Shown here piece after piece: positions 7,343 through 22,193 of a stretch of 64,000 nucleotides of DNA. The stretch spans positions 124,001 through 188,000 of the forward strand of contig NZ_JOEH01000016.1 in assembly GCF_000719095.1 (NCBI RefSeq). Direction: 5' to 3'. Origin of the DNA: Streptacidiphilus jeojiense (GTDB taxonomy: Bacteria; Actinomycetota; Actinomycetes; Streptomycetales; Streptomycetaceae). Numbering within the stretch: position 1 is the first letter of the stretch; every line of letters begins with the position of its first letter. The notes beneath the pieces are model-generated. The model was not told the DNA's origin. It did not search any database and saw only the letters and a program-made list of their open reading frames with translations. Position numbers and translations under genes: made by a program.

Positions 7343-8290
7343 ATGCGTGCGCTCCTGGTCGTCAACCCGAAGGCGACCACCACCAGCGGCCGGACCAAGG
7401 ACGTGCTCGCCCACGCCCTGGCCAGCGACCTGAAACTGGAGGTCGTGGCCACCGAGTACCGGGGCCACGCCCGCGATCTGGCCCGGGACGCCGCCGCGTC
7501 CGGCAGCGTGGACCTGGTGGTGTCGCTGGGCGGCGACGGCACGGTGAACGAGGTCGTCAACGGACTGCTCTCGGACGGACCCTCCGAACACCTGCCCAGA
7601 CTCGCCGTGGTGCCCGGCGGTAGCACCAATGTGTTCGCCCGCGCCCTCGGTCTGCCCAACGATCCGGTGGAGGCGACCGGAGTACTGCTGGACGCCCTCG
7701 CCTCGAAACGGGAGCGGACCGTCGGCCTCGGCCGGGCGGTGACCGAGGGCCTCCCGGAGCGCTGGTTCACCTTCACCGCCGGCTTCGGTTTCGACGCCGG
7801 CGTGGTCGGCCGGGTCGAACAGCACCGGCGCAGCGGCAAGCGGTCCACTCACGCGCTTTACATCAACCAGGCGGTCCGCCACTACTTCGGTGAGCGGGAG
7901 CACCGCAAAGCGGGCCCGATCACTCTCCGCATCCCCGGCGCGGAACCGGTCGAGGGCTTGGTGGTGTCCATAGTGGCGAACACCTCGCCCTGGACCTTCC
8001 TGGGCAACCGCCCGGTCTACGCCTCACCCGAGGCGACGTTCGACACGGATCTGGACCTCTTCGGGATGACGAAGATGTCACTCCTGCAGACCCTTCGAAC
8101 GATCCCCCAGCTCCTGGACGGTTCCGGGAGGGGTCCGCGGGGCAAACACGTGGTCGCTTACCACGACCTCCGGGAATTCACCTTGCATTCGCAGGAAACG
8201 CTGCCATTTCAGGTCGACGGAGACCACCTTGGAGAGCGGAACCAAGTCAGCTTCTCAGGCGTACGTCGCGCACTGCGTGTGATTGTGTGA
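7343..8290 (+). CDS. Diacylglycerol/sphingosine kinase-family lipid kinase
   Basis: A 315-residue DAGK-catalytic-domain protein that phosphorylates a lipid (diacylglycerol, or a related mycobacterial/streptomycete lipid) with ATP. Nucleotide-binding motif SLGGDGTVNEVVNGL (about residues 66-80) and VVPGGSTNVFARALG (about 90-104) are the hallmark DGK motifs. The C-terminal beta-sandwich ends with the conserved FQVDGDHLG. The substrate is not readable. The gene keeps the place between sigH and wblE that it has in S. coelicolor. A hairpin terminator follows the stop by 3 nt. Confidence 0.9.
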   Translation: MRALLVVNPKATTTSGRTKDVLAHALASDLKLEVVATEYRGHARDLARDAAASGSVDLVVSLGGDGTVNEVVNGLLSDGPSEHLPRLAVVPGGSTNVFARALGLPNDPVEATGVLLDALASKRERTVGLGRAVTEGLPERWFTFTAGFGFDAGVVGRVEQHRRSGKRSTHALYINQAVRHYFGEREHRKAGPITLRIPGAEPVEGLVVSIVANTSPWTFLGNRPVYASPEATFDTDLDLFGMTKMSLLQTLRTIPQLLDGSGRGPRGKHVVAYHDLREFTLHSQETLPFQVDGDHLGERNQVSFSGVRRALRVIV

Positions 8291-8292
8291 TC

Positions 8293-8313
8293 AGAAGGGC
8301 CTTGCGCCCTTCT
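8293..8313 (+). terminator. Hairpin after the lipid kinase gene
   Basis: AGAAGGGC at 8293-8300 pairs with GCCCTTCT at 8306-8313 across a 5-nt loop and is followed by a pyrimidine-rich stretch. It starts 3 nt after the stop codon. Confidence 0.65.
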
Positions 8314-8624
8314 TCTCGAACGCGCGACCCGCTTCACTCCATAGAAGTACAGGGTGTGACCTAGCAGACACCGACGAATCAAAAATTCCTTCCCGATAGG
8401 GGTTGTATCCGGAGTCGAGGTTTGCGAACCTTTACATGGCGATCGGGACGGACCGTTACCGGAGACCCGCCTGATTCGCCCGAATCCACTGCAACGTCGC
8501 AGGCATCCGCACGCCGACCCACCCGTTGGCCGCGCACCTGCCACAGGGTTCGTGAAAGCGTTCACATTCACAAGCCACCGATGAGCCGCGGGACATCCCC
8601 GTCGGCTGGAGGAGTTGGATCATC
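8314..8624 (+). promoter_or_regulatory. Upstream region of wblE with a short inverted repeat
   Basis: This 311-nt stretch has no convincing gene. GTGAA-AGCG-TTCAC at 8552-8565 is a perfect 5-bp inverted repeat about 60 nt before the start of wblE and could be an operator. GGAGGAG at 8608-8614 is the wblE ribosome site. No -35/-10 pair could be assigned with confidence. Confidence 0.35.
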
Positions 8625-8876
8625 ATGGACTGGCGCCACCGCGCTGTCTGCCGGGAAGAAGACCCCGAGCTGTTCTTCCCCATCGGCAACACGGGGCCCG
8701 CCCTGCTGCAGATCGAGGAAGCGAAGGCCGTCTGCCGTCGCTGCCCGGTCATGGAGAGCTGCCTGCAGTGGGCCCTGGAGACCGGTCAGGACGCCGGCGT
8801 CTGGGGCGGAATGAGCGAGGACGAGCGTCGTGCGATGAAGCGTCGCGCCGCCCGCAACCGCGCACGCACCGCCTGA
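8625..8876 (+). CDS. wblE: WhiB-like iron-sulfur transcription factor WblE
   Basis: An 83-residue Wbl protein. The four cluster ligands are Cys9, Cys37, Cys40 and Cys46 (C-x2-C-x5-C spacing at the second to fourth), followed by the GVWGGM turn and a basic tail KRRAARNRART. Wbl proteins bind a [4Fe-4S] cluster and region 4 of the principal sigma factor. The short form without AT-hook and the place beside the sensor kinase and sigH neighbourhood match WblE (WhiB1-like class), which is widely conserved and abundant in streptomycetes. The ribosome site GGAGGAG lies 10 nt upstream. Confidence 0.92.
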   Translation: MDWRHRAVCREEDPELFFPIGNTGPALLQIEEAKAVCRRCPVMESCLQWALETGQDAGVWGGMSEDERRAMKRRAARNRARTA

Positions 8877-9094
8877 CGCACCGTCCGGCAGACAGAACTT
8901 CCTGCCTGGGGGACGCACCACCGCACCGCCCGCACCACGCACCACTTCTCGATCAGCACGTGATCAGGTGCCGAACGGCACTTTCCGAGGCAACGCACCG
9001 ATCGCGGCGCTCGTCGGCCCCGACAGTTTGATACCGTCGGAGACGAGGGCAGCCGCCCGTGCGAAGCACGCGGGCACCGCCCGCACCCAGAGCC

Positions 9095-9131
9095 CCTGCT
9101 CCGGCCGACTCCCCCCGACGGCCGGAGCAGG
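9095..9131 (+). terminator. Hairpin after wblE
   Basis: Arms 9095-9106 and 9120-9131 pair over 12 bp. It belongs to the 321-nt convergent gap 8877-9197 between wblE and pls, which holds two hairpins and otherwise nothing I can assign. Confidence 0.7.
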
Positions 9132-9138
9132 CTTGAGA

Positions 9139-9173
9139 GGCCCTGTCGACCCTCCCCCCCGGTCGGCAGGGCC
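9139..9173 (-). terminator. Hairpin after pls
   Basis: Arms 9139-9151 and 9161-9173 pair over 13 bp with one G-U, around a C-rich loop. It sits 25 nt past the pls stop and, with the hairpin at 9095, forms a two-way stop. Confidence 0.65.
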
Positions 9174-9197
9174 TCGTTCTGTCTCCTGCCCGACTGC

Positions 9198-12100
9198 TCA
9201 ACTCCACTGCGCCACAGGGTTTCCCAGCCAGCGGGTGCCGGTCGGCAGGGTCTCGCCGCGCATCACCAGCGAGGCCGGGCCGACCACCGCGCCGTCCCCC
9301 ACCGCCGCACCCAGCAGCACGATCGAGTGCGGTCCGACGGTCGCCCCGGCCCCGATGTCAACGCCGTCCATCCGCATCAGCCGATCGTGGAAGAGATGCG
9401 TCTGCAGCACCACCCCGCGATTGACCGAGCAGCCCTCCCCCAGACGGACCAGGTCCGTCTCCGGCAGCCAGTGGGTCTCGCACCACACCCCGCGGCCGAT
9501 CCGCGCGCCCAGACTGCGCAGCCAGACGGTGAGGAAGGGCGTCCCCAGCAGGGAGCCGCCGAGCCAGGGCATCGCCAGCTCCTCGACGAAGACGTCGAAC
9601 AGCTCGTTGCGCCAGACGAAGGAACTCCACAGCGGCTGCCGCCCCTTGCGGAACCGGCCCAGCAGCAGCCATTTGGCCGCAGTGGTGAGCAGGCAGGCGC
9701 CCACGCCGCAGCACAGCAGCAGCACGCCGCAGCCGAGCGCACAGACCGTCAGACCGTCCCGGCCCAGCAGTTCCTGGAGTCCGGCCACGGCCAGGTCGCC
9801 CAGCAGCACGGTCAGCGCCAGGGGTCCGAGGCGGCACAGTTCCACCGCCGCCCTGGCCAGTACCAGCCGGCGCGGCGGGTCGTAGGTGCGGGCCGCGTCC
9901 CCGGACTCGGCGACCCGCGGGATGCCGAAGCCGGGCCGCCCCAGCCAGGAAGCCCCCGTCTCGACCCGGCCCGCCGGGGGGACGTCGGAGAGCACGCCCA
10001 CCAGCGAGTCGGCCGGCAACTGCCGTCCCGGGCCGACGATCCCCGAGTTCCCGACGAAGGACCGCCGCCCGACCGAGGCGGTGCCCAGCCGCAACCAGCC
10101 GCCGCGGACCTGGAACGGGGCGAGCAGGGTGTCGTCGGCCAGGAAGGCGTAGTCGTCCACCCGGGTCAGCCCGGGCAGCGCGAGCACGGTGGACGCCTCC
10201 ACCCGGCGGCCGACCCTGGCGCCGAGCAGCCGCAGCCAGGCCGGCGTGGCCAGCGAGGCGTACAGCGGGAACAGCAGCGAGCGGGCCGAACCCATCAGCT
10301 GGTGGACCGCCCAGACGCTCCACCCGGTGCGGCCCACGGCGGGGTGCAGCCCCTGGGTGACGGACCGTGAGAGCAGCCGGACCAGGCCGGCCAGCAGCAG
10401 GGCGTACAGGCCCAGGGTGAACAGGGCCAGCGGCACCGAGGAGAACAGCAGCCGGTCGAACACGCTGGTCCAGCTGGGGTCCCGGCCCATCAGCAGGTAG
10501 AGCAGCAGCGCCCCGGGCGCGGCGGCGGCCAGCGGCAGCAGTTGCAGCAGCGGCAGCGACAGCGCGTACGCGGCGTGCCAGCGGCGACGGTGGCCCGGGG
10601 GGAGGGCCGGGGCGGCGGCCGGCCAGCCCGGCCCGTCGGACCCCGGGGCCGCGCCGTCCGGACGGGCCGGCGAGCCGTGCCAGCGGGCCCAGGCGGGAAC
10701 GGCTCCGGTGACGCAGCTGCCGGCGGCGACCTCGGCTCCCGGGCCGACCTCGGCACCGGGCATCAGCGTGGACCTGGTGCCGATCCTGGCGCCCGCGCCG
10801 ACCGAGACGGCGCCCAGGTGCAGCCGGTCCCCCTCCAGCCACCACCCCGCCGCGTCCACCTCGGGTTCCAGCGAGCACCCCGGGCCGAACTCGGCCAGCC
10901 CGGTGACCGGCGGCATGGTGTGCAGATGGACGTCCTCGCCGACCCGGCAGCCGAGCATCCTGGCGTAGCGGCCGGCCAGCGGGGTGCCCAGCACGGCGGC
11001 CACGTTGAAGACGCCGACCAGGCGTTCGGCGGTCCACAGCCGCAGGTGCGCCGGGCCGCCGCGCGGATAGGTCCCCGGCCGCAGGCCCCGGGTCAGCAGC
11101 CGGGCGCCGGCCGCCCCGATCACGGTGCGCCCGAGGGCGCTGGAGAGCAGCAGCCAGCCGCCGGCGATCAGCCACCAGGAGGTGCGCTGGGTCCAGGGCA
11201 GCGAGGAGGGCAGCAGATTGTCGAGGGCGGCGAGGGCGAGCACCCAGCGCAGTCCGCCCAGGGTGTGCAGCAGCACCAGCACGGCCCCCTGGTAGAGACC
11301 GGTCCAGCCGCGGCCGGCGGCGGGTGCGGGCGCCGGTGCGGGCCGGCCGGCACGGCCGGAACGGTCCGCGGCGGGGTCCTCCGCAGGCCGGTCCTGGCCC
11401 GCCCCGGTGCCGCCCCCGTCCAGGTACGCGGCGAGTTCGTCCAGCCGGGGCTGCCGGTAGAGGTCGGCCACCGAGAGGCCGGGGTGCCGCTGCCGCAGCA
11501 GCGAGACCAGCTTCGCGGCGGCCAGGCTGGTGCCGCCCAGCGCGAAGAAGTCGCTGTCCGGGCCCGGGTCGACGCCGAGCAGGTCGCGCCACTGCCCGGC
11601 GAGCCGGGCGGCGGTGCCGTGCAGCGCGGCCCCCGGGCCGGGGTCCTCGGTCCGGGGCAGCGGCCAGGGCAGCGCCTTGCGGTCCACCTTGCCCGAGGTC
11701 CTGGTCGGCAGTTCGGGCAGTTCCGCCAGCACCGGCACCAGCGCCGCCGGCAGCCGCCGCCGGAGCAGCTTCCGCAGCAGCGCCAGATCCAGCAGCCCCG
11801 GTCCTGACCCGTCGTCAGCACCGGTGTCCCGTCTGGCCGCCGGCACCAGGTAGCCGACCAGCAGCTGGCCGCCGGCCGCCGTCTCCCGCACCGCCGCGGC
11901 CGCCGCGCCGACGCCGGGGAGGGCGGCCAGTGCGGCGTCGACCTCGCCCAGCTCGATCCGCCGACCGCCCAGCTTGACCTGCTCGTCGGCGCGGCCGACG
12001 AAGGCCAGGCCGTCCGGATCGGCCCGGACCAGGTCGCCGCTGCGGTAGACCCGGGCCCCCGGGATGGCCGGGTGGGACTGGAACTTCTCCGCGTCCCTGG

Positions 12101-13196
12101 ACCGGTCCAGATAGCGCGCCGTGCCGACCCCGGCGATCAGCAGTTCTCCGGTGCCGCCCCAGGGGACCGGGTGTCCGGCCGGGTCCACCACCGCGATCTG
12201 CCAGCCGTCCAGGGGGGTGCCGATGCGCACCGGCTGTCCGGCCCGCATCCGTGCCGCGCAGGCCACCACGGTGGTCTCGGTCGGACCGTAGGTGTTCCAG
12301 AACTCCCGCCCCGGCACGTCCAGGCGCTGCACCAGTTCGGCCGGGCAGGCCTCGCCGCCGACGATCAGCAGCCGGACCGCGTCCAGGTCCTCGGCCGGCC
12401 AGAGCGCGGCCAGGGTCGGCACCGTGGACACCACGGTGATGCCGCGCCGGACCAGCCAGGGACCGAGCTCGGCCCCGGTCCGGACCAGCGCCCGGGGCGC
12501 CGGCACCAGGCAGGCGCCGTGCCGCCAGGCCAGCCACATCTCCTCGCAGGAGGCGTCGAAGGCCACCGAGAGTCCGGCCAGCACCCGGTCGCCGCGGCCC
12601 AACGGCGCGTCCCGGAGGAAGAGTTCGGCCTCCGCGTCGACGAAGGCCGCCGCCGAGCGGTGGGTGACGGCGACGCCCTTGGGACGTCCGGTGGTGCCGG
12701 AGGTGAAGATCACCCAGGCGTCGTCCCCCGGCGTCGGCGGGCCGCTCCGCGCCCTCGGCGCGGCGGCCCCGGGCCCGTCCAGCAGCGCGCCGCCGGCACC
12801 GAGGACCACCCGCACCCCGGCGTCCTGCCAGATGGACTCGGCCCGCTCGTCCGGGTCGTCCACGTCCACCGGGACGTAGGCGGCGCCGGCTCTGAGCACG
12901 CCGAGGATGGCCAGGTACAGCTCCGCCGTCCCGGACGGCACCCGCACGCCGACCCGGTCGCCGGGGCCCACCCCGCGCCGGACCAGCCGGGCCGCCGTCG
13001 CGTCGGCCGCCTCCCGCAGCGTCCGGTAGTCCAGGACGGTGCCGTCCGCGTCCAGGGCGGGCGCCAGCGGCGAGCTCCGCACGGTGGCGTCGAGGACGTC
13101 CAGCAGGGTGCGGGCCGGCGCTGCGGGCCGCACCGGCCAGGCGGCCTGAGGGTGCGGCAGCGCTGCCGCGGGGGGTGCCACAATCTGGGGTTCCAC
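9198..13196 (-). CDS. pls: Pls-type membrane NRPS, candidate epsilon-poly-L-lysine synthetase
   Basis: A 1332-residue one-protein peptide synthetase. Order: adenylation domain (about 30-520) with FTSGTTGRPKG, FDASCEEMW, NTYGPTETT, YRSGDLVR and RTSGKVDRKALP; carrier domain (about 535-605) with LGGTSLAAAK, phosphopantetheine serine near 554; then three blocks, each a pair of membrane helices plus a soluble hexapeptide/acyltransferase-like domain, ending near 1330. No thioesterase or classical condensation domain. Length and layout match Streptomyces albulus Pls, which joins lysine through its epsilon-amine. Adenylation pocket residues read D-A-E-S-I-G-T-V-V-K by alignment from memory to GrsA, a lysine-like code. 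GTG at 13196 follows GACGAGAG. It lies downstream of a sensor kinase; no degrading enzyme or tailoring gene is near. Many Pls/PosA homologues have unknown products. Confidence 0.85.
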   Translation of the reverse strand: MEPQIVAPPAAALPHPQAAWPVRPAAPARTLLDVLDATVRSSPLAPALDADGTVLDYRTLREAADATAARLVRRGVGPGDRVGVRVPSGTAELYLAILGVLRAGAAYVPVDVDDPDERAESIWQDAGVRVVLGAGGALLDGPGAAAPRARSGPPTPGDDAWVIFTSGTTGRPKGVAVTHRSAAAFVDAEAELFLRDAPLGRGDRVLAGLSVAFDASCEEMWLAWRHGACLVPAPRALVRTGAELGPWLVRRGITVVSTVPTLAALWPAEDLDAVRLLIVGGEACPAELVQRLDVPGREFWNTYGPTETTVVACAARMRAGQPVRIGTPLDGWQIAVVDPAGHPVPWGGTGELLIAGVGTARYLDRSRDAEKFQSHPAIPGARVYRSGDLVRADPDGLAFVGRADEQVKLGGRRIELGEVDAALAALPGVGAAAAAVRETAAGGQLLVGYLVPAARRDTGADDGSGPGLLDLALLRKLLRRRLPAALVPVLAELPELPTRTSGKVDRKALPWPLPRTEDPGPGAALHGTAARLAGQWRDLLGVDPGPDSDFFALGGTSLAAAKLVSLLRQRHPGLSVADLYRQPRLDELAAYLDGGGTGAGQDRPAEDPAADRSGRAGRPAPAPAPAAGRGWTGLYQGAVLVLLHTLGGLRWVLALAALDNLLPSSLPWTQRTSWWLIAGGWLLLSSALGRTVIGAAGARLLTRGLRPGTYPRGGPAHLRLWTAERLVGVFNVAAVLGTPLAGRYARMLGCRVGEDVHLHTMPPVTGLAEFGPGCSLEPEVDAAGWWLEGDRLHLGAVSVGAGARIGTRSTLMPGAEVGPGAEVAAGSCVTGAVPAWARWHGSPARPDGAAPGSDGPGWPAAAPALPPGHRRRWHAAYALSLPLLQLLPLAAAAPGALLLYLLMGRDPSWTSVFDRLLFSSVPLALFTLGLYALLLAGLVRLLSRSVTQGLHPAVGRTGWSVWAVHQLMGSARSLLFPLYASLATPAWLRLLGARVGRRVEASTVLALPGLTRVDDYAFLADDTLLAPFQVRGGWLRLGTASVGRRSFVGNSGIVGPGRQLPADSLVGVLSDVPPAGRVETGASWLGRPGFGIPRVAESGDAARTYDPPRRLVLARAAVELCRLGPLALTVLLGDLAVAGLQELLGRDGLTVCALGCGVLLLCCGVGACLLTTAAKWLLLGRFRKGRQPLWSSFVWRNELFDVFVEELAMPWLGGSLLGTPFLTVWLRSLGARIGRGVWCETHWLPETDLVRLGEGCSVNRGVVLQTHLFHDRLMRMDGVDIGAGATVGPHSIVLLGAAVGDGAVVGPASLVMRGETLPTGTRWLGNPVAQWS

Positions 13197-13333
13197 GTGC
13201 CGCGCTCTCGTCAGGTGCCAGAGGGTCCAGGCTCATAGGGACTGACGAGCGGAGTGGGCTTTGAGTATGGAAGAACCGCGCAAAAAAACGGTAAATCCAG
13301 TTTTATCGTTACGAGTAGCACTCAAATGTACGA
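13197..13333 (-). promoter_or_regulatory. AT-rich promoter region of pls
   Basis: The 137-nt gap between the sensor-kinase stop and the pls start contains a strikingly AT-rich core (about 13255-13335, with a run of seven A on the plus strand) in otherwise about 75% GC DNA. This suggests pls has its own promoter and is not simply co-transcribed. No unambiguous -35/-10 pair was chosen. Confidence 0.4.
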
Positions 13334-14866
13334 TTACGGCGCAGTGCTTCCGACCGGGACCTCCAGCACCACCCGGGTCCCGCCGGTCTCCCCCGGCACC
13401 ATGTCGAAGCTGCCGCCCAGTTCCCCGACCACCAGCGTCCTGACGATCTGCAGCCCGAGGTTGCCGCCCCGCTGCGGGTCGAAGCCCTCCGGCAGGCCGA
13501 CGCCGTCGTCGACCACCGTGATCAGCAGCTGCTCCTCGCCGCGACTGCCGCCGGCCGCCCAGCTGTTGCCCCAGCCGGCATCGGCCGCCGGCATCCGCCC
13601 CCGCACCGCACGCACCGTCACCTGGCCGCCGGCCTTGGGCCCGTAGGCGTGTTCCAGCGCGTTCTGCAGGATCTCGGTGAGCACCATCGCCAGCGGGGTG
13701 GCCACATCGGCCGACAGGATGCCGAAGCTGCCGCTGCGGCGCGCGGTCACCCGACCGTCCTGGGACAGCTCCATCACCATCGCCAGCACCCGGTCCGCGA
13801 TCTCGTCGAAGGCCACGTGCTCGTCCAGGTTCTGCGACAGCGTCTCGTGGACGATCGCGATGGAGCCGACCCGGCGCACGGCCTCGTCCAGCGCGCCGCG
13901 GGCGGCGTCGTTCTCCATCCGGCGGGACTGCAGCCGCAGCAGGGCCGCGACGGTCTGCAGGTTGTTCTTCACCCGGTGGTGGATCTCCCGGATGGTGGCG
14001 TCCTTGGTCATCAGCTCGCGCTCGCGCCGCCGCAGCTCGGTGACGTCGCGCAGCAGCACCAGCGAGCCGATGTGGTCCCCCTTCGGCTTCAGCGGGATGG
14101 CCCGCAGCTGCACCACCCCGTCGCCGGACTCGACCTCGGTCTGCCGCGGCGCCCAGCCGCTGGCCAGCTTGACCAGGGCCTCGTCGACCGGGCCGCGGGA
14201 CGGCGGGGCCAGCTCGGCGGTGGTCTTGCCCAGGTGCAGGCCGACCAGGTCGGCGTTGAGGCCGAGCCGGTGGTAGGCGGAGAGGGCGTTCGGGCTGGCG
14301 TAGGTGACCACCCCGTCCGCGTCGAGGCGGATCATGCCGTCGCCGACCCGGGGGGAGGCGTCCATGTCGGTCTGCTCGCCGGGGAACGGGAACGACCCCG
14401 CGGCGATCATCTGGGCCAGGTCGGAGGCGCTCTGCAGATAGGTGAGCTCCAGCCGGCTGGGGGTGCGCACGGTCAGCAGGTTGGTGTTGCGGGCGATCAC
14501 GCCCAGCACCCGTCCCTCGCGCCGGACCGGGATCGACTCGACCCGGACCGGGACGTCCTCGCGCCACTCCGGGTCGCCCTCGCGGACGATCCGGCCCTCG
14601 TCCAGCGCCACGTCCAGCATCGGGCGGCGGCCCCGCGGCACCAGGTGGCCGACCATGTCGTCCTGGTAGGAGGTCGGACCGGTGTTGGGGCGCATCTGCG
14701 CCAGCGACACGTACCGGCTGCCGTCGCGGGTGGGCACCCACAGCACCAGGTCGGCGAAGGAGAGGTCGGAGAGCAGCTGCCACTCGGACACCAGCAGGTG
14801 GATCCACTCCACGTCGGCGCTGTCCAGGTTGGTGTGGTGGCGCACCAGCTCATTGAGGGAAGGCAT
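13334..14866 (-). CDS. PdtaS-like sensor histidine kinase
   Basis: A 510-residue soluble two-component kinase. The N-terminal 150 residues form a GAF-like domain, followed by a PAS domain (about 165-270) and a HisKA_2 dimerisation box with phospho-acceptor histidine in IREIHHRVKNNLQTVAALL (about residue 300), then an HATPase with MVLTEILQNALEHAYG and VVDDGVGLPEGFD. This is the EtaS/PdtaS class whose partner is an RNA-binding ANTAR response regulator; none is adjacent. The gene corresponds in place to SCO5239 of S. coelicolor as I recall. The ATG at 14866 is preceded by TACGCT at leaderless spacing. pls lies 137 nt downstream. Confidence 0.9.
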   Translation of the reverse strand: MPSLNELVRHHTNLDSADVEWIHLLVSEWQLLSDLSFADLVLWVPTRDGSRYVSLAQMRPNTGPTSYQDDMVGHLVPRGRRPMLDVALDEGRIVREGDPEWREDVPVRVESIPVRREGRVLGVIARNTNLLTVRTPSRLELTYLQSASDLAQMIAAGSFPFPGEQTDMDASPRVGDGMIRLDADGVVTYASPNALSAYHRLGLNADLVGLHLGKTTAELAPPSRGPVDEALVKLASGWAPRQTEVESGDGVVQLRAIPLKPKGDHIGSLVLLRDVTELRRRERELMTKDATIREIHHRVKNNLQTVAALLRLQSRRMENDAARGALDEAVRRVGSIAIVHETLSQNLDEHVAFDEIADRVLAMVMELSQDGRVTARRSGSFGILSADVATPLAMVLTEILQNALEHAYGPKAGGQVTVRAVRGRMPAADAGWGNSWAAGGSRGEEQLLITVVDDGVGLPEGFDPQRGGNLGLQIVRTLVVGELGGSFDMVPGETGGTRVVLEVPVGSTAP

Positions 14867-14872
14867 TCACCG

Positions 14873-14878
14873 AGCGTA
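14873..14878 (-). promoter_or_regulatory. -10 box of the sensor-kinase gene
   Basis: Read on the minus strand this is TACGCT, 6 nt before the ATG at 14866, consistent with a leaderless transcript. Confidence 0.5.
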
Positions 14879-14925
14879 TCCGGTTCCTGCACCGATTCCG
14901 CTGCTCAGTGGGGATGGACAACGCA

Positions 14926-14941
14926 ATTGGTCTAGTCCACA
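14926..14941. promoter_or_regulatory. DasR-operator-like site upstream of the sensor kinase
   Basis: ATTGGTCTAGTCCACA matches the dre consensus ACTGGTCTAGACCACT at 13 of 16 positions, including the whole central TTGGTCTAG. It is centred about 68 nt upstream of the kinase start. The rest of the 333-nt gap (14867-15199) holds a hairpin at 15096-15130 and a short tandem direct repeat near 15138-15170. Confidence 0.45.
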
Positions 14942-15095
14942 ATGGAACTGCACCAAGGGAGGACCCACCGCGCTATCTGCCCTGACCGCGCACCGGGACC
15001 TTCCGCTTGATGAGAGTCGGCCTGACCGTCCCGCGCCTCCGGGCCCGCACACCCGCCGCGCGGAGACACCAGCCACCGACCATGCCTCGGGCCGC

Positions 15096-15130
15096 GGTGC
15101 CGGACAGGTTGAGGGTCCTGTCCCGGCGCC
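15096..15130 (-). terminator. Imperfect hairpin after the orphan binding-protein gene
   Basis: Arms 15096-15108 and 15117-15130 pair with one bulge. It lies 70-105 nt past the stop of the solute-binding gene, so it is a likely but not certain terminator. Confidence 0.4.
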
Positions 15131-15199
15131 ACGGCCCTTGTGCGTTCCCGGCAGCTTGCGTTCCCGGCAGTTTGGTCCCCGGAAGCGGTGCCGGCGCGG

Positions 15200-16483
15200 T
15201 CAGCCCTGGCTGAGCCGCGAGGCCAGCTTGGCGTCGGCCGCCTTGGCGGCCGCCTGCGGGTCCTTGCCCTGCAGGATCGGGGTGAGGAACAGCGTGGTGA
15301 TCGGGTTCGGCGTGTTCTCCACGTTCCCCCAGTTCGGGACGAGCGGGGTGAAGCCGGCGGTGGCCGCCTCCTCGGACGCCGCGGCCGCGTAGGCGTTGCC
15401 CTTGATCGCCGGGTAGAGCTTCGCCTTGTTCGGCAGGAACCCGGACAGCTTGGCGAAGAGGCCCTCGTTGGTGTCGTTGAGTGCGATCTTCAGAAAACCC
15501 AGGGCCAGGTCGGGGTTGACCGAGTTGGTCGCGACGGCGAGGTTGGAGCCGCCGAAGAAGGTCTTGGCCGGCTTGTCCGGGGTGGCGCCGGGGATGGGGA
15601 ACCAGCCGATCTGGCCGGCCAGTTTGGGGTTGTCCTTGATCGCCGCGCTCTCCTCGTACCCCATCGCGATCATCGAGGCGACATCGCCCTTGGCGAAGAC
15701 CCCGGACTCCAGCGGATGCGACTCGTCCTGGTCCACCGGGGCCGCGCCGAAACCGTTCAGCGTCTTGAACAGCTGGGCGGCCTGGAGCGCCTGGGGGCTG
15801 CCCAGGTCGCCGACCCAGCGGCTGTTCTGCTCGGTGAGGATGTCCGCCCCGGCGTCCTGGAGGAAGCCGTCGAAGGCGTACCAGTTCTGGCCGGGCAGAT
15901 AGAGCGCCGACTTCACCCCGGTGGTCTGCTTCAGCTTGGCCAGGTCGGTCAGCCACTCGGACATGGTGGTCGGCGGGGTGACCCCGGCGCGCGCCCAGAG
16001 CGTCTTGTTGTACATCACCGCGCGGCTGCCGGCGTACCAGGGCGCGGCGAACTGCTTCCCGCCGACCAGCGTCGACTTGTTCATCGACGGGGTCCAGTCC
16101 GCGCCGCCCAGCTGCGCCTTGTACTTGTCGAGGTCCATCAGGCCGCCGGTGGAGGCGTAGTACGCGGTCTGGGTGTTGCCGATGTCGAAGATGTCCGGCG
16201 GATCCACCAGCGAGAGCGCGGTGGTCACGGTCGCCTGGATGTCGGTCCACTGCTTGGTCTGGAAGTCCACCGTGGCGCCCGGGTACTGCTGCTCGAACTG
16301 CGCCTTCACCGAGGCCATCCAGCTCGGCAGGTCGTCCCCGGCCATCAGCCAGACCACCAGCTTCTTGCCCTGGTTCGAGTCGGCCGCACTCCCGGCCCCG
16401 CCCGAACCTCCCCCACTGCACGCACTCGCGCCGACCATGACCACGGCCGTACCCAGTGCGGCGACCAACCGCCGACGGTTCAC
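15200..16483 (-). CDS. Orphan DasA-like sugar-binding lipoprotein
   Basis: A 427-residue family-1 extracellular solute-binding lipoprotein. The N-terminus has basic NRRR, a hydrophobic core and the lipobox ending at Cys22 (VGASAC), then a Gly/Ser linker. The body resembles DasA in this window: KLVVWLMAGDD near the N-terminus, PPDIFDIGNTQTAYYAS and PWYAGSRAVMYNKTLW. It would catch an oligosaccharide outside the membrane for an ABC importer, but no permease genes sit next to it; it may share DasBC. GTG at 16483 follows AGGAGGGG with 6-nt spacing. It is divergent from dasA and has a dre-like site upstream. Confidence 0.88.
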   Translation of the reverse strand: MNRRRLVAALGTAVVMVGASACSGGGSGGAGSAADSNQGKKLVVWLMAGDDLPSWMASVKAQFEQQYPGATVDFQTKQWTDIQATVTTALSLVDPPDIFDIGNTQTAYYASTGGLMDLDKYKAQLGGADWTPSMNKSTLVGGKQFAAPWYAGSRAVMYNKTLWARAGVTPPTTMSEWLTDLAKLKQTTGVKSALYLPGQNWYAFDGFLQDAGADILTEQNSRWVGDLGSPQALQAAQLFKTLNGFGAAPVDQDESHPLESGVFAKGDVASMIAMGYEESAAIKDNPKLAGQIGWFPIPGATPDKPAKTFFGGSNLAVATNSVNPDLALGFLKIALNDTNEGLFAKLSGFLPNKAKLYPAIKGNAYAAAASEEAATAGFTPLVPNWGNVENTPNPITTLFLTPILQGKDPQAAAKAADAKLASRLSQG

Positions 16484-16634
16484 GCCATCCCCTCCTGGGA
16501 CCCCAGGCTGCCCGGACCCCGCGCGGCAATTCATCCCGGGTTCGCCCCCGCCCCCGGACGCAACGGTGTCGGCGCCGATGAAATACACCAAAGGCCTTGC
16601 ATAATGCGCACGCCCAATTCACGGCCGAATCGCA

Positions 16635-16650
16635 CTTGGCATAGACCAAT
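16635..16650. promoter_or_regulatory. dre-like site before the orphan binding-protein gene
   Basis: On the minus strand it reads ATTGGTCTATGCCAAG, 11 of 16 to the dre consensus and close to the site at 16883. It lies about 160 nt upstream of the GTG at 16483. Confidence 0.45.
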
Positions 16651-16782
16651 TTCCGGAGTCTGGACCTCGGCGCGCACTCCGGTCAAGGAAAGGCAACCCC
16701 TGCGCGGCAAGGTGTTACCGGACCGACACCTCAGCGGCGATGCGCCCCGACTGTCCCTGTTTGCAGGGGTTTTGTGATCCTG

Positions 16783-16798
16783 ACTGGTCCAGTCCTAC
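16783..16798. promoter_or_regulatory. dre-like palindrome in the divergent das gap
   Basis: GACTGGTCCAGTC (16782-16794) is a perfect odd-length palindrome whose left half equals the dre half-site ACTGGTC; about 11 of 16 positions match over 16783-16798. Confidence 0.35.
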
Positions 16799-16870
16799 CC
16801 CTGGCGTCCATCTGCGGCCACCCCGCTTGTCAAGCGTTGGTAACGGCTTGGCTCAGGCTGTCGAGAACTC

Positions 16871-16900
16871 TTGACGCTCCACATTGGTCCATGCCAATCT
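16871..16900 (+). promoter_or_regulatory. Candidate dasA promoter
   Basis: TTGACG (16871-16876) and CAATCT (16895-16900) are separated by 18 nt. One dre-like site lies between them and another just downstream, so repressor binding would block both polymerase entry and start. The rest of the 639-nt gap 16484-17122 holds the other operator candidates and a leader of about 200 nt. Confidence 0.5.
16883..16898. promoter_or_regulatory. dre-like site inside the dasA promoter
   Basis: ATTGGTCCATGCCAAT is nearly palindromic and matches 11 of 16 dre positions. It spans the spacer of the candidate promoter. Confidence 0.5.
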
Positions 16901-16906
16901 CCGATC

Positions 16907-16922
16907 ACTGGTCTACACCAAT
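16907..16922. promoter_or_regulatory. DasR operator (dre) of dasA
   Basis: ACTGGTCTACACCAAT matches 14 of 16 positions of the dre consensus ACTGGTCTAGACCACT and resembles the dre recalled for dasA of S. coelicolor. It covers the expected transcription start. Confidence 0.8.
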
Positions 16923-17122
16923 CAGGTAGCTGCGTCGGAGCGACTGGCGCGGAATTCACAATTCCGCGCGGTCTCGGGCCGGTGCGGAAGCCACAGCTCC
17001 ACCAGCACCACGCGAAGACGGCACAACCCCCATTGAGCACCTCACTCCAGGCACGGTCAAGCTCAGGAACACCTCCGAGACCGAACCGGTGCCCTCTCTC
17101 GCTCATCCCTCAGGAGGATGTT

Positions 17123-18442
17123 TTGAAGCGCAAGATCGCAGTCGCCGCGGCACTCGCCAGCGTGCTCACGGCCGCCGCCTGTTCCTCTTCTTCGACCGCC
17201 GGAAGCTCCAAGCAGGCCACCCTGAGCACGGACGGCAAGGGCAAGACCATCAACGTCTGGCTGATGCAGGACGCCCAGAAGGGCTGGCCGGGGGTTGTCG
17301 ACGCGGCGAAGAAGCAGTTCACCGCCGAGACCGGTGCCAACGTCAACATCCAGTGGCAGACCTGGACCAACTACAGCACCAAGCTCGACACCGCGCTGCT
17401 CTCCGGCAACGCCCCCGACGCGCTGGAGCTGGGCAACACCCAGACCGCCAAGTACATCGCGGCCAACTCCTTCGTGGACCTGTCCAGCGTCAAGGACAAG
17501 TTCGACAACTCGTCCAGCTGGCTGGACTCGCTGGCCGCCTCCGGCCAGAGCGCGGACCACACCAAGACCTACGCGATCCCGTACTACGCGGGCGCCCGCA
17601 TCATGATCTACCGCAAGGACCTGTTCGCCGCGGCCGGCGTCACCACGCCGCCCACCACCCTGGACGAGCTGACCGCCGACCTGACCAAGGTCAAGGCCGC
17701 CAACTCCAAGGTCCCGAACTTCTCCGCGCTCTACCTGCCGGGCAAGAACTGGTACACCGCCGTCTCCTTCGGCGCGGGCACCTACGGCGTCAACAACGTC
17801 ATCGCCAAGTCCGACGGCTCCAAGTTCACCGGCACGCTCACCGACCCGACGTTCATCCAGGGCATCCAGACCTGGGACACCCTGCAGAAGAACTTCTCGT
17901 CCGGCGGCACCACCGTGGACGAGACCACCCAGGACGCGCTGATGGCCAAGGGCAACATCGCCGCCATCATCGGCAACGGCTGGGAGGTCGGCTCGGTCAC
18001 CGACCCGAAGACCGGTGACCCGTCCCTGGCGTCCAAGCTCGGCACCATCGCCGTCCCCGGCACCACCGCCGGCCAGCCGACCCCCGCCTTCCTCGGCGGC
18101 TCCGACCTGGCCGTCCCGACCCACGCCGCCAACCCGGGCCTGGGCGCCGAGTTCCTGCGCATCTTCACCAACACCGCGCAGCAGACCGCGCTGGCGAAGT
18201 TCGCCATCCCGAACAACAAGACCCTGCTGCCGACCTACGAGGCCGTCAGCGACGTCAACAAGGCCGCCGGTGCGGCCGCCAACGGCAAGACCTGGTTCAT
18301 CCCGAACTCCCAGTTCTGGAGCCAGGCCTCCGACGAGGTCGCGCTGCAGACCGCCTTCAGCGCCATCGCCGCCGGCGGAGACCCGACGGCTGCCCTGACC
18401 ACCGCCCAGACCACCATCATCGGTGACCTGAACGGCGGCTGA
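17123..18442 (+). CDS. dasA: Chitobiose/GlcNAc ABC transporter binding lipoprotein DasA
   Basis: A 439-residue family-1 solute-binding lipoprotein with N-terminus MKRKIAVAAALASVLTAAAC, lipidated at Cys20 and followed by a serine-rich linker. The mature part has NVWLMQDAQKGW, ALELGNTQTAKYI, PYYAGARIMIYRKDLF and FLGGSDLAVPTHAANPG, the DasA-type sugar-binding fold. DasA binds N,N'-diacetylchitobiose outside the membrane for DasBC and affects development in Streptomyces. The TTG start at 17123 is chosen because AGGAGG ends 5 nt before it and the signal peptide begins there; TTG starts are rare. dre-like sites upstream give DasR control. Two stem-loops separate it from dasB. Confidence 0.93.
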   Translation: MKRKIAVAAALASVLTAAACSSSSTAGSSKQATLSTDGKGKTINVWLMQDAQKGWPGVVDAAKKQFTAETGANVNIQWQTWTNYSTKLDTALLSGNAPDALELGNTQTAKYIAANSFVDLSSVKDKFDNSSSWLDSLAASGQSADHTKTYAIPYYAGARIMIYRKDLFAAAGVTTPPTTLDELTADLTKVKAANSKVPNFSALYLPGKNWYTAVSFGAGTYGVNNVIAKSDGSKFTGTLTDPTFIQGIQTWDTLQKNFSSGGTTVDETTQDALMAKGNIAAIIGNGWEVGSVTDPKTGDPSLASKLGTIAVPGTTAGQPTPAFLGGSDLAVPTHAANPGLGAEFLRIFTNTAQQTALAKFAIPNNKTLLPTYEAVSDVNKAAGAAANGKTWFIPNSQFWSQASDEVALQTAFSAIAAGGDPTAALTTAQTTIIGDLNGG

Positions 18443-18453
18443 AACGCCTGATC

Positions 18454-18546
18454 GCGGGTCCGGCCCCCTCGGGCACCTCCGAGCGGGCCGGGCCCGCGGC
18501 CACTGAGCGCACCCAGGGCAGCCGGTGGAGCGTCTACCGGCTGCCC
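18454..18546 (+). promoter_or_regulatory. Two tandem stem-loops between dasA and dasB
   Basis: First stem: 18454-18466 with 18485-18497 (13 bp, one G-U, containing a smaller inner stem). Second: 18516-18526 with 18536-18546 (11 bp, perfect). Such hairpins after a binding-protein gene usually lower read-through or protect the upstream message, so that far more DasA than DasBC is made. Confidence 0.6.
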
Positions 18547-18627
18547 GCCCCATGCGCGCATGCTCCTTCAGTCAGCACCACGTCGGTGAGCAAGACCCAG
18601 TTTCAAAGGCTCCGGGGAAGGACCCTG

Positions 18628-19611
18628 ATGAGTGTGATCGATTCCGACCGTCCAACGGCGAGCGCCGGTCGGCAGGACGCGTCCCCGAAGTCCCGATGGC
18701 TGAGCAGACGGGGTGTCGCCGACGGCTACATGCCGTACGTGCTGATCGTCCCGGCAGTCGTGGTGATGCTGGGCGTGATCGGCTACCCGATCTTCAAGCT
18801 GATCCAGCTGTCGTTCCAGAACGTCAACGCCTACCTCTACCTGGCCGCGCCGGCCCTGGTCCGCTACATCGGCTTCGACGGGTTCACCAAGGTCCTCAGC
18901 GACCCGACCTTCTGGCAGTCGGTCGAGCGCAGCGTGCTGCTGACCGTCGAGGTGGTGGTCCTCTCCATCGGCCTCGGCCTGGCCTTCGCGGTGCTGCTCA
19001 ACCGGGTGTCCAACTGGGCCAAGGTCACCGTGGTCACCGTGCTGATGTTCGTCTGGGCCATCCCCGCCCTGGTCTCCGGAACGGTCTTCTCCTGGCTGTT
19101 CAACAACACCGGCGGCGTCGTCGACTACATCTGCTACGAGCTCGGCGGCAAGGGGATGCTGGACCACAACTGGTTCGCCAACCCCACCCAGGGCCTGTAC
19201 GTGGTGGTCGCCGCCTGCGTGGTCTGGGGCGCGCTGCCGTTCCTGGTGATCGGCCTGAACGCGGCGATGACCCAGGTGCCCAAGGAACTGGTCGAGGCCT
19301 CCAAGATCGACGGCGCCTCCCCGTGGCAGAGCTTCCGGCACGTGGTGATCCCGGTGATCCGGCCGTTCCTGCTGCTCTCCACCGCGCTCAGCTTCATCTG
19401 GGACTTCCAGGTGTTCGCCCAGATCTGGGCGCTCCGCCAGAACTCGCCGGAGCCGGGCTACCAGACCATCGGCGTCTACCTGTACGCGCAGGGCGTGGCC
19501 AGCAGCCACTACAGCCGGAGCGCGGTGGTCTCCATCGCGATGATCGTGCTGATGCTCGGCGTCCTGGTGTTCTACATCCGCCAGGTCATCAAGATCGGAG
19601 AGCAGGACTGA
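18628..19611 (+). CDS. dasB: ABC sugar permease DasB
   Basis: A 327-residue MalF-type inner-membrane permease. After a 40-residue cytoplasmic N-terminus there are six hydrophobic segments, and the EAA loop reads ELVEASKIDGASPWQSFRHV (about residues 218-237), which contacts the ATPase. With DasC it forms the channel for chitobiose uptake; the ATPase is expected to be the shared MsiK, not encoded here. ATG at 18628 follows GGGGAAGGA; the upstream codon at 18586 has no ribosome site. The stop overlaps the dasC start by one base. Confidence 0.93.
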   Translation: MSVIDSDRPTASAGRQDASPKSRWLSRRGVADGYMPYVLIVPAVVVMLGVIGYPIFKLIQLSFQNVNAYLYLAAPALVRYIGFDGFTKVLSDPTFWQSVERSVLLTVEVVVLSIGLGLAFAVLLNRVSNWAKVTVVTVLMFVWAIPALVSGTVFSWLFNNTGGVVDYICYELGGKGMLDHNWFANPTQGLYVVVAACVVWGALPFLVIGLNAAMTQVPKELVEASKIDGASPWQSFRHVVIPVIRPFLLLSTALSFIWDFQVFAQIWALRQNSPEPGYQTIGVYLYAQGVASSHYSRSAVVSIAMIVLMLGVLVFYIRQVIKIGEQD

Positions 19612-20534
19612 TGGCTTTCACCTCGTCGCAAAAGGCCGTGTCCACCCGGCTCCCCAAGCCGCTCAAGGCGTCCAAGGAGAGCCGCTCCGAACGGCCCGCC
19701 AACCAGAACCGCTGGATGACCGGCGCCTGGAACACCGTCGCCATCGGCTTCGCCGTGGTGATGGGCTTCCCGATCTACTGGGCGGCGCTGACCACGGTCA
19801 AGTCCAACCGGGACCTGCTCTCGCAGAACCCGACCTTCTGGCCCAGGCACTTCGACCTCGGCAGCTACAGCACCATCTTCAACGACCCCGACCTGCCGAC
19901 CGCGCTGGAGAACACCGCGATCATCACGGTCGGCGCGGTGATAGCCGGTCTGCTGGTGGGCCTGCTGGCCGCCATCGCGGTGGCCCGGTTCCGGTTCCGC
20001 GGCCGCAACTTCTTCATCGTCACCATGCTGGTGGTGCAGATGGTGCCGCTGCTGTCGCTGATCATCCCGCTGTTCCTGATCCTCAAGAACATCGGCCTCT
20101 ACAACACCCTGTTCGGCGTGATCATCGCCTACCTGGTGTTCACCATCCCCTACGTGGTGTGGACGCTGCGCTCCTTCATCGTCAACATCCCCAAGGAACT
20201 GGACGAGGCCGCCATGGTGGACGGCTGCACCCGCTGGGGCGCCTTCTTCCGGGTGGTGCTGCCGCTGACCGTCCCCGGCCTGGTCACCACCGGCGTCTAC
20301 TGCTGGATCCAGGCGTGGAACGAGTTCATCATCGCCAACACCATGCTGTCGGACAACAACACCCACACCGGCATGGTCTGGCTGACCGGCTACTCCGCGG
20401 GCCCCACCCACGCAGCCGACTACGGGGCGCAGATGGCGGGCTCGCTGCTGATCTCACTGCCCGTGATCATCCTCTTCGTCATCTTCCAGAAGCGGGTGGC
20501 CTCCGGTCTCACCGCCGGCGCCGTCAAGGGCTGA
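19611..20534 (+). CDS. dasC: ABC sugar permease DasC
   Basis: A 307-residue MalG-type permease, partner of DasB. Six hydrophobic segments lie between about residues 40 and 300, and the EAA loop reads ELDEAAMVDGCTRWGAFFRV (about residues 200-220), ending VASGLTAGAVKG as in MalG proteins. The ATG overlaps the dasB stop (TGATG), indicating coupled translation. It would move the DasA-delivered chitooligosaccharide into the cytoplasm. Confidence 0.93.
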   Translation: MAFTSSQKAVSTRLPKPLKASKESRSERPANQNRWMTGAWNTVAIGFAVVMGFPIYWAALTTVKSNRDLLSQNPTFWPRHFDLGSYSTIFNDPDLPTALENTAIITVGAVIAGLLVGLLAAIAVARFRFRGRNFFIVTMLVVQMVPLLSLIIPLFLILKNIGLYNTLFGVIIAYLVFTIPYVVWTLRSFIVNIPKELDEAAMVDGCTRWGAFFRVVLPLTVPGLVTTGVYCWIQAWNEFIIANTMLSDNNTHTGMVWLTGYSAGPTHAADYGAQMAGSLLISLPVIILFVIFQKRVASGLTAGAVKG

Positions 20535-20615
20535 CCGGACCGTCGGCCCCACCGACCGACACCCGTATCTGCACGCACCTGAGCTGTACGCATCAAGACA
20601 TGCAAGGAAGGAACC

Positions 20616-22193
20616 ATGACGAATCCCGGCCCGGACACCGTCCAACTCCTCGCGGACGCCGGCGCGGTGCTCCAGCCGGGGTTCACCGGCCTCACCGCTC
20701 CCGACTGGGTGCGGCACCGCCTGGAGACCGGTGAGCTCGGCGGTGTCGCCCTGTTCGGGCGCAACATCGCCGACCACGAGCAGGTCGCCGCGCTCACCTC
20801 CTCGCTGTACGCGCTCAACCCCGACCTGCTGATCGCCACCGACGAGGAGGGCGGCGACGTCACCCGGCTGGAGGTGATGACCGGCTCCTCCTACCCGGGC
20901 AACCAGGCCCTGGGCGCGATCGACGACATCGAGCTCACCGAGGACGTCGCCCGCTCCATCGGCATCGACCTGGCCGCGGCCGGGATCAACCTCAACTACG
21001 CGCCGGACGCCGATGTCAACTCCAACCCGGACAACCCGGTCATCGGGGTGCGCTCCTTCGGCGGCGACGGCGAACTGGCGGCCCGTCACACCGCCGCCTA
21101 CATCCGGGGCCTGCAGTCGGCCGGCGTGGCCGCCTGCGCCAAGCACTTCCCCGGCCACGGCGACACCGCCGCCGACACCCACCTCGGCCTGCCCAGGATC
21201 GACCTGCCGCTGGACGTCTTCGGCGCCCATCTGGCGCCGTTCCGCGCCGCGGTCGCCGCCGGAGTGAAGTCGATCATGACGGCGCACATCCTGTTCCCGG
21301 CCTACGACACCGACCTGCCGGCCACCATGTCCCGGGCCATCCTGACCGACCTGCTGCGCAAGGACCTCGGCTACGACGGGCTGATCGTCACCGACGGCAT
21401 CGAGATGGGCGCCATCTCCGGCACCCACGGGATAGCCGAGGGCACCGTCAAGGCCATCGCCGGCGGCGCCGACGCCATCTGCGTCGGCGGCGGGCTCCAG
21501 GACGAGGCCACCTTCCTGTACCTCCGCGACGCCCTGATGTGGGCGGTCCGCGAGGGCCGGATCGCCGAGGAGCGGCTGCACGAGGCCGCCGAGCGCAACC
21601 GCGCGGTGGCCCGCTGGTCCGCCGGGGTCAGGGCGCAGCACGCCGCCACCGCCGTGCCCGACATCGGCCTCACGGCCGCCCGCCGCGCGCTGCGGGTCAG
21701 CGGCGAGCTGCGCCCGGTCGACGGCGTGCCGCACGTGGTCGAGTTCTCCCCGGCCGCCAACTTCGCGGTGGGCGACGAGACCGCCTGGGGCCTGGCCGCG
21801 CCGCTCGGCAAGCTGATCCCCGGCACCACCGTCACCCGGGTCGGCGCACCGGCTTCGACGCTGCAGAGCGCCGGACTGCTGCGGGCCACCGTGGACGACG
21901 CCGAGGGCCGGGTGGACACCACCCCGCTGCTCGGCGCCGCGGTCGGCCGCCCGCTCGTCATCGTGGTGCGCGACCTGCACCGCTACGCATGGATGAAGCG
22001 CGCGGCACTGGAGTTGACGGCGGCCAGGCCGGACGCGGTGGTCGTGGAGATCGGCACCGCCTACGGGCTGGAGGAGACCTTCTCGGGACGCGGAGTGACC
22101 GTGCTCACCACCTACGGCGGAGCCCGGGTGTGCGGCATCGCCGCGGCCGAGGCCCTTGCCGGACCGGGCACGGGCGCGGTCCGGGTCGCCTGA
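20616..22193 (+). CDS. dasD: Glycoside hydrolase family 3 beta-N-acetylglucosaminidase DasD
   Basis: A 525-residue GH3 enzyme lacking a signal peptide, so cytoplasmic. The substrate motif KHFPGHGDTAADTHLGLP (about residues 171-188) is the NagZ/NAGase type, and the nucleophile aspartate lies in GLIVTDGIEMGAIS (about 255-268). The C-terminal 180 residues form a second alpha/beta domain, as in two-domain GH3 enzymes. It would split imported chitobiose to N-acetylglucosamine, whose phosphorylated forms release DasR. GGAAGGA precedes the ATG. It is 81 nt after dasC, in the same direction. Confidence 0.92.
   Translation: MTNPGPDTVQLLADAGAVLQPGFTGLTAPDWVRHRLETGELGGVALFGRNIADHEQVAALTSSLYALNPDLLIATDEEGGDVTRLEVMTGSSYPGNQALGAIDDIELTEDVARSIGIDLAAAGINLNYAPDADVNSNPDNPVIGVRSFGGDGELAARHTAAYIRGLQSAGVAACAKHFPGHGDTAADTHLGLPRIDLPLDVFGAHLAPFRAAVAAGVKSIMTAHILFPAYDTDLPATMSRAILTDLLRKDLGYDGLIVTDGIEMGAISGTHGIAEGTVKAIAGGADAICVGGGLQDEATFLYLRDALMWAVREGRIAEERLHEAAERNRAVARWSAGVRAQHAATAVPDIGLTAARRALRVSGELRPVDGVPHVVEFSPAANFAVGDETAWGLAAPLGKLIPGTTVTRVGAPASTLQSAGLLRATVDDAEGRVDTTPLLGAAVGRPLVIVVRDLHRYAWMKRAALELTAARPDAVVVEIGTAYGLEETFSGRGVTVLTTYGGARVCGIAAAEALAGPGTGAVRVA

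Follow-up and report, generated by a model that had tools for sequence, protein, structure and literature searches.

A predicted second epsilon-poly-L-lysine synthetase between the pdtaS-like and wblE genes of Streptacidiphilus

A stretch of 64,000 nucleotides from Streptacidiphilus jeojiense (hereafter the window) carries, between the genes for a PdtaS-like sensor histidine kinase and for WblE, one large gene that we call pls2. An earlier note, made from the letters of this DNA, had proposed that it encodes a synthetase of the Pls type and is a candidate for epsilon-poly-L-lysine production, inserted into a core locus. The locus thus raises the question of what the Pls2 protein polymerises, and of how such a gene came to stand between two conserved neighbours. 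We conclude that pls2 very probably encodes a functional epsilon-poly-L-lysine synthetase, the second of its genome, with a product that is predicted. The bases for this conclusion are sequence, architecture, identity of the substrate pocket, position in the tree, synteny and selection; the substrate, the catalytic cycle (after the literature on S. albulus Pls), the export of the polymer and a protection shared with the other synthetase of the genome are inferred.

Architecture and substrate pocket of Pls2

The gene and the parts of its product are located in the window as follows:

9198..13196, minus strand: pls2, nonribosomal peptide synthetase of the epsilon-poly-L-lysine synthetase type, 1332 amino acids (open reading frame; TIGR02353, 663.5 bits; 7WEW, 690 bits; clade with P0122)
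11898..13091, minus strand: adenylation domain, residues 36-433, code DAESIGTVVK (TIGR01733 at 57-433, PF00501 at 36-361, pocket of P0122)
11421..11606, minus strand: carrier (T) domain, residues 531-592, with the phosphopantetheine serine S557 in LGGTSL (PF00550)
10608..11315, minus strand: terminal unit 1, membrane helices and hexapeptide-type C1 domain, residues 628-863, approximate limits (AlphaFold2, internal repeat, PF00132 at 797-831)
9882..10607, minus strand: terminal unit 2, two membrane helices and C2 domain, residues 864-1105, approximate limits (AlphaFold2, internal repeat)
9201..9881, minus strand: terminal unit 3, membrane helix region and C3 domain, residues 1106-1332, approximate limits (AlphaFold2, internal repeat)

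The gene starts with GTG and its frame is free of internal stops. Pfam recognised three families in Pls2, corresponding to AMP-binding, PP-binding (the single carrier domain with its serine) and one hexapeptide stretch, and the NCBIfam model TIGR02353, 'Pls/PosA family non-ribosomal peptide synthetase', spans residues 636-1328 well above its cut-off of 423.1 bits, with model positions 3-695 of 695 covered. Neither a condensation nor a thioesterase domain was found by Pfam, or as a separate domain among the 25 of 108 NCBIfam matches listed, in agreement with the thioesterase-free layout that the earlier note had described for this single protein with adenylation domain, carrier domain and three-unit terminal part.

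The last 705 residues, modelled with AlphaFold2 from 49 sequences, show three units in which helices are followed by strands (mean predicted local distance difference test score, pLDDT, of 81.9; predicted template modelling score, pTM, of 0.88), with low confidence where units 1 and 3 are rich in strands, including the end of C3. The top fold matches of this model in the PDB are hexapeptide acetyltransferases, with alignments about one unit long, and the three units are alike in sequence (z scores of 14.2, 16.5 and 10.4, from 200 shuffles each). The TIGR02353 match, the internal repeat, the model and the fold search together identify the terminal part of Pls2 as three tandem acetyltransferase-related domains (C1-C3). 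The units proposed in the earlier note are thus recovered; their membrane helices are not separable pair by pair, since a hydropathy scan gave five zones above threshold and a weaker sixth, the two hydrophobic stretches of unit 3 lie in one modelled helix of 56 residues, and parts of the model have low confidence.

The solved structure nearest to Pls2 is 7WEW, 'Epsilon-poly-L-lysine synthase', followed by the next match at 392 bits; we take 7WEW to originate from Streptomyces albulus. Its chain corresponds to the full-length protein P0122 (1319 amino acids, labelled epsilon-poly-L-lysine synthase Pls; 99.4% identity over 493 residues). The code D-A-E-S-I-G-T-V-V-K, already read as lysine-like in the earlier note, is identical in Pls2 and P0122, and the wider adenylation pocket, with positions taken by GrsA numbering, is equal at 34 of 34 positions. 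The two adenylation domains share 71.8% identity over 465 columns. The earlier note had also suggested alignment with Pls and PosA, and this gives 61.5% identity to P0122 over the full length, against a far weaker match to the adenylation domain of PosA (8G95; 191 bits, versus 690 for 7WEW). As described in PMC10522769, position 2 of the code is Ala in lysine enzymes, Met in PosA (ornithine; code DMEHNGTVSK) and Phe in diaminopropionate and diaminobutyrate enzymes; in Pls2 this position is Ala, neither the Phe nor the Met type. The baumannii PosA differs from Pls2 in code and adenylation-domain score, although the family architecture is the same in the account of PMC10522769. A Corynebacterium enzyme that is 51% identical to Pls is reported to have produced epsilon-poly-L-lysine in S. 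coelicolor (PMC8117764); strain M145 of that species has no pls of its own according to the same paper, which also names proven diaminobutyrate and diaminopropionate synthetases.

Five TIGR02353 proteins with Phe-type codes from other genomes of the family (L225-L229), whose products are assigned from the code only, served as a substrate control. They are 36.1-37.5% identical to Pls2, and a branch with 100% support parts them from 22 rows with the code DAESIGTVVK, Pls2 included. Pls2 thus falls with P0122 and not with homologues of another presumed product, the grouping that had been named as counting against lysine. The codes among the five controls are DFECLSAVTK, DFECLSVVSK, DFECLSLVTK and DFEYVGTVTK.

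In the Pls of S. albulus, adenylated lysine passes to the carrier and then, at C1-C3, to a free chain that is held non-covalently, in a cycle that uses no thioesterase, according to PMC9205021 and PMC8506220. By analogy, the adenylation domain of Pls2 would convert L-lysine into lysyl-AMP and load it on S557, and the membrane-embedded C1-C3 units would link the loaded lysine by epsilon-amine bonds to a free chain held without covalent attachment; the polycation would then leave the cell.

Locus, second synthetase and ancestry

The borders of the locus and the region ahead of the gene are:

13334..14866, minus strand: PdtaS-like sensor histidine kinase, marks one end of the conserved locus and shares the strand of pls2 (PF12282, PF07568)
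8625..8876, plus strand: WblE, marks the opposite end of the conserved locus and is convergent to pls2 (PF02467 WhiB)
13197..13333, minus strand: 137-base gap from the kinase stop to the pls2 start, with a G(A/G)CGAG box ahead of the GTG

The PdtaS-like kinase was matched in all 41 genomes searched, and 30 kinase loci were returned, 14 from Streptacidiphilus and 16 from the 27 genomes outside the genus with a match. In every one of these 16 other-genus loci (11 genera of the same family and 5 genomes of the same order), WblE follows the kinase within about 0.65 kb, without Pls. A Pls copy stands between kinase and WblE in 13 of the 14 Streptacidiphilus genomes (in pieces in G013, a 76% complete assembly), and in the fourteenth, G002, the locus ends about 330 bases past the kinase, presumably where the contig stops. 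The site being empty in the 16 loci and occupied in 13 of 14 Streptacidiphilus genomes, the insertion is old and genus-wide, and pls2 would have become established at this site in the ancestor of the genus. The earlier view of a gene inserted into a core locus holds, and the insertion is not peculiar to this strain.

The host genome (9.16 Mb, 143 contigs) contains two TIGR02353 matches above the cut-off, pls2 and a gene on contig C1 (L084) that is followed by an M1-family metallopeptidase gene. In Streptomyces and Corynebacterium, pls is reported to share an operon with a peptidase gene, the Streptomyces one being PldII, which degrades epsilon-poly-L-lysine (PMC8117764). Similarly, the Pls gene L010, with an adenylation domain 92% identical to 7WEW, adjoins an M1 peptidase gene whose product is 46% identical to that of the host genome. 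The pair on contig C1 is thus the canonical pls-pldII pair, and pls2 an additional, solo pls. The earlier note had suggested a search of the genome for an epsilon-poly-lysine peptidase: a PldII-like one is present, beside the first synthetase and not beside pls2. This peptidase would probably limit damage from both polymers. The copy on contig C1 and the pls-M1 peptidase pairs of actinobacteria belong to the same family and have the same ten-letter code as Pls2; the copy on contig C1 is 57.4% identical to Pls2 and differs from it in main clade, in its M1 peptidase neighbour and in a serine at the position of W646 (see below). With respect to the S. albulus type (7WEW, P0122), Pls2 shares domain order, pocket and major clade, but differs in lacking an adjoining M1 peptidase, in lying between pdtaS and wblE and in having a second Pls in its genome.

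This arrangement is common to the genus. All 14 Streptacidiphilus genomes searched contain at least two family members, two or three each, and every one of them has an M1 peptidase at the locus of one copy (intact in 13 genomes, in pieces in G013). As to the genus, the rows of locus L001 from Streptacidiphilus carbonis and of the G003 locus are identical, and so are those of two proteins labelled Streptacidiphilus and of G011 and G012. An M1 peptidase of at least 63% identity occurs once per genome, next to the peptidase-paired Pls copy, and a more distant one (37-41%) lies elsewhere in 11 of the 14, the host genome included. Six genomes carry a third Pls copy elsewhere (G001, G005, G006, G007, G009 and G013), matched piecewise in G001 and G013. 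The third copies L113, L115, L119 and L127 are located off the wblE locus, with no M1 peptidase found adjoining, L127 being at a contig start with its downstream side unseen.

In a midpoint-rooted tree of 124 Pls rows (leaving aside L017, L063, L075 and L131, which we chose to omit, and L128, L129, L130 and L132, which lack one continuous reading frame of the required type), one half of 70 rows covers many actinobacterial families and has an M1 peptidase in all 70 loci. The other half, of 54 rows, contains P0122 and its relatives, with a peptidase where the locus is kept, beside peptidase-less copies from Kitasatospora, some Streptomyces, Streptacidiphilus and a few Pseudonocardia and Amycolatopsis. 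An M1 peptidase was found in 6 of 35 loci of this half. Of the 17 rows marked as lacking an M1 peptidase, L012 and L127 have less than 0.8 kb downstream, so that absence cannot be read from these two. Pls2, starred in the tree, belongs to the P0122 clade, and Streptacidiphilus thus carries Pls copies of both halves. One copy per half is also present in Kitasatospora sp. MAP5-34 (L038, L042) and in S. novaecaesareae (L005, L069). A survey of the family, which scored three candidates per listed genome and from which we use only tallies and examples, found at least one member in 195 of 297 genomes, and more than one in many of those listed.

The solo Kitasatospora copies (L003 and L007 of K. aureofaciens, L042 of MAP5-34) are 65-68% identical to Pls2 and likewise without M1 peptidase, but they are not at the wblE-pdtaS place; another Kitasatospora protein, P0009, is closer to Pls2 (73%). 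PMC8117764 includes a K. aureofaciens enzyme (AZL89021.1), which may be L003 or L007, among those confirmed by experiment. Among 19 solo Pls loci compared, no neighbour family besides Pls is common to more than four.

The family also includes proteins of 933 and 965 amino acids (L234:427-3228 in G214 and L196:856-3753 in G025) that combine a carrier domain with a full terminal domain and lack an adenylation domain, and several further family matches in G214 and G087 lie in similarly short open frames. Such proteins would depend on another protein for adenylation. Neither of the two above-cut-off TIGR02353 matches of the host genome is of this short type.

Ahead of pls2, the GTG start and the G(A/G)CGAG box are found in 9 of 10 aligned orthologues, pls2 of the window included (10 of the 13 orthologues were aligned, and the tenth, L118, is masked at its start). 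A TTTACC-like stretch occurs in the gap of several orthologues but forms no single aligned motif, and we do not put it forward as a conserved promoter. A promoter and terminator scan of 8000-15200 gave no terminator-like site and a sole promoter-like site at 14915-14943 (plus strand), away from pls2, and Rfam reported no RNA element between kinase and pls2. Upstream of the kinase, a match to the small RNA scr5239 (RF02605) at 14925-15129 (plus strand) stays below threshold with 38.2 bits (gathering threshold 64). In S. coelicolor, scr5239 is described as lying upstream of SCO5239 (PMC4365011), an order that the match would fit. On the far side of the kinase, the window at 15200-22193 encodes a family 3 glycoside hydrolase together with two solute-binding proteins and one or more ABC permeases, probably a cluster for sugar uptake and breakdown.

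Maintenance of pls2 and alternative explanations

The ratios of nonsynonymous to synonymous substitution rates (dN/dS) of pls2 against three orthologues, 0.32, 0.40 and 0.39, indicate a maintained gene. Among 308 Pls-like rows, Pls2 included, 340 columns are conserved at 97% or more, and Pls2 deviates at none of them. These observations bear on the suggestion that pls2 is a relic or a non-polymerising paralogue, drifting or retained for some other reason, which would agree with the missing peptidase neighbour, with the faster change of Pls2 than of Pls1 (the copy on contig C1) and with the piecewise matches of the third copies in G001 and G013. Given the open frame, the unchanged conserved columns, the dN/dS values and the same location in 13 of 14 genomes (G013 in pieces), we regard this explanation as highly improbable. 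It is also very unlikely that the polymer of Pls2 is built from a different diamino acid (ornithine, diaminobutyrate, diaminopropionate or beta-lysine) or from a mixture. The family does yield several polymers, and the pockets of some members are untested according to PMC10522769, but the pocket of Pls2 is that of P0122 at every position compared, the Phe-code members, compared by code and not as sequences of proven product, lie on another branch, and the PosA adenylation domain is a much poorer match.

Several points nevertheless weigh against epsilon-poly-L-lysine synthesis by Pls2. Between the genome of the window (G000) and G010, dN is 0.064 for Pls2 versus 0.022 for Pls1, and this faster change suggests that the duty of Pls2 may be relaxed or altered. 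The M1 peptidase neighbour that is usual for pls is missing. The presence of a gene does not amount to production, since no epsilon-poly-L-lysine was detected from the confirmed C. variabile gene (WP_041630296.1) in its native host (PMC8117764). The code across 308 close relatives (DAESIGTVVK in 301, DAESVGTVVK in 6, one row, L144, misaligned) is uniform in part through selection of the rows, which were gathered by similarity. The activity is, moreover, predicted from sequence. Pls2 as a functional epsilon-poly-L-lysine synthetase remains, in our view, very probable, the identity of pocket and adenylation domain and the tree supporting the candidate product first proposed for this gene.

A further proposal, which would add to this function and does not exclude it, is that the product of pls2 is an epsilon-poly-lysine of another length than that of the first copy, so that the two enzymes divide the work. 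According to a review (PMC8506220), Pls makes chains of 21-32 residues and its W646S mutant shorter ones of 9-23 residues; P0122 carries both W646 and L883, the residues of the reviewed mutants. At the W646 position, Pls2 has W (W668) and the copy on contig C1 has S, with A in its two nearest orthologues, W being present in 297 of 308 rows. The change in the copy on contig C1 hints that the products may differ in length. K. aureofaciens, named as a short-chain source in the same review, has R at this position in L003; its other copy, L007, retains W, and the copy tested could be either. The loop that holds this position is gapped, which makes its equivalence uncertain, and the remaining clade I sequences aligned from the genus retain W, the split being confined to three genomes. 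We thus consider a division of work by chain length possible but doubtful. The second chain-length position, L883, was too variable for use.

A standing pair of synthetases in an acid-loving genus

Enzymes of this kind are well known, and the NCBI model already labels such proteins as Pls/PosA family; what is added here is a genus-wide second copy without peptidase. Among the papers searched, none names Streptacidiphilus together with 'epsilon-poly-L-lysine' or with 'polylysine', the two pairings used, and the matches listed for a looser search do not mention the genus. Epsilon-poly-lysine is an antimicrobial polymer of soil bacteria and an industrial food preservative obtained from acid culture, whose natural role is little understood. 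Streptacidiphilus is an acid-loving genus. With two or three copies per genome it may be a sensible place for this polymer, since acidic pH is described as important for its accumulation (PMC9205021, PMC8506220).

One may speculate, although we think it rather unlikely to hold as a whole, that two epsilon-poly-lysine synthetases with separate ancestries form a standing pair in Streptacidiphilus, one paired with a peptidase and one without it at a regulator-flanked core locus, each polymer having its own length or purpose, such as antimicrobial secretion for one and a cell-surface cation coat or acid protection for the other. With two or three members in 14 of 14 genomes, the genus would offer a direct test of the role of epsilon-poly-lysine, and Pls1 and Pls2 a natural pair in which to study what determines chain length.

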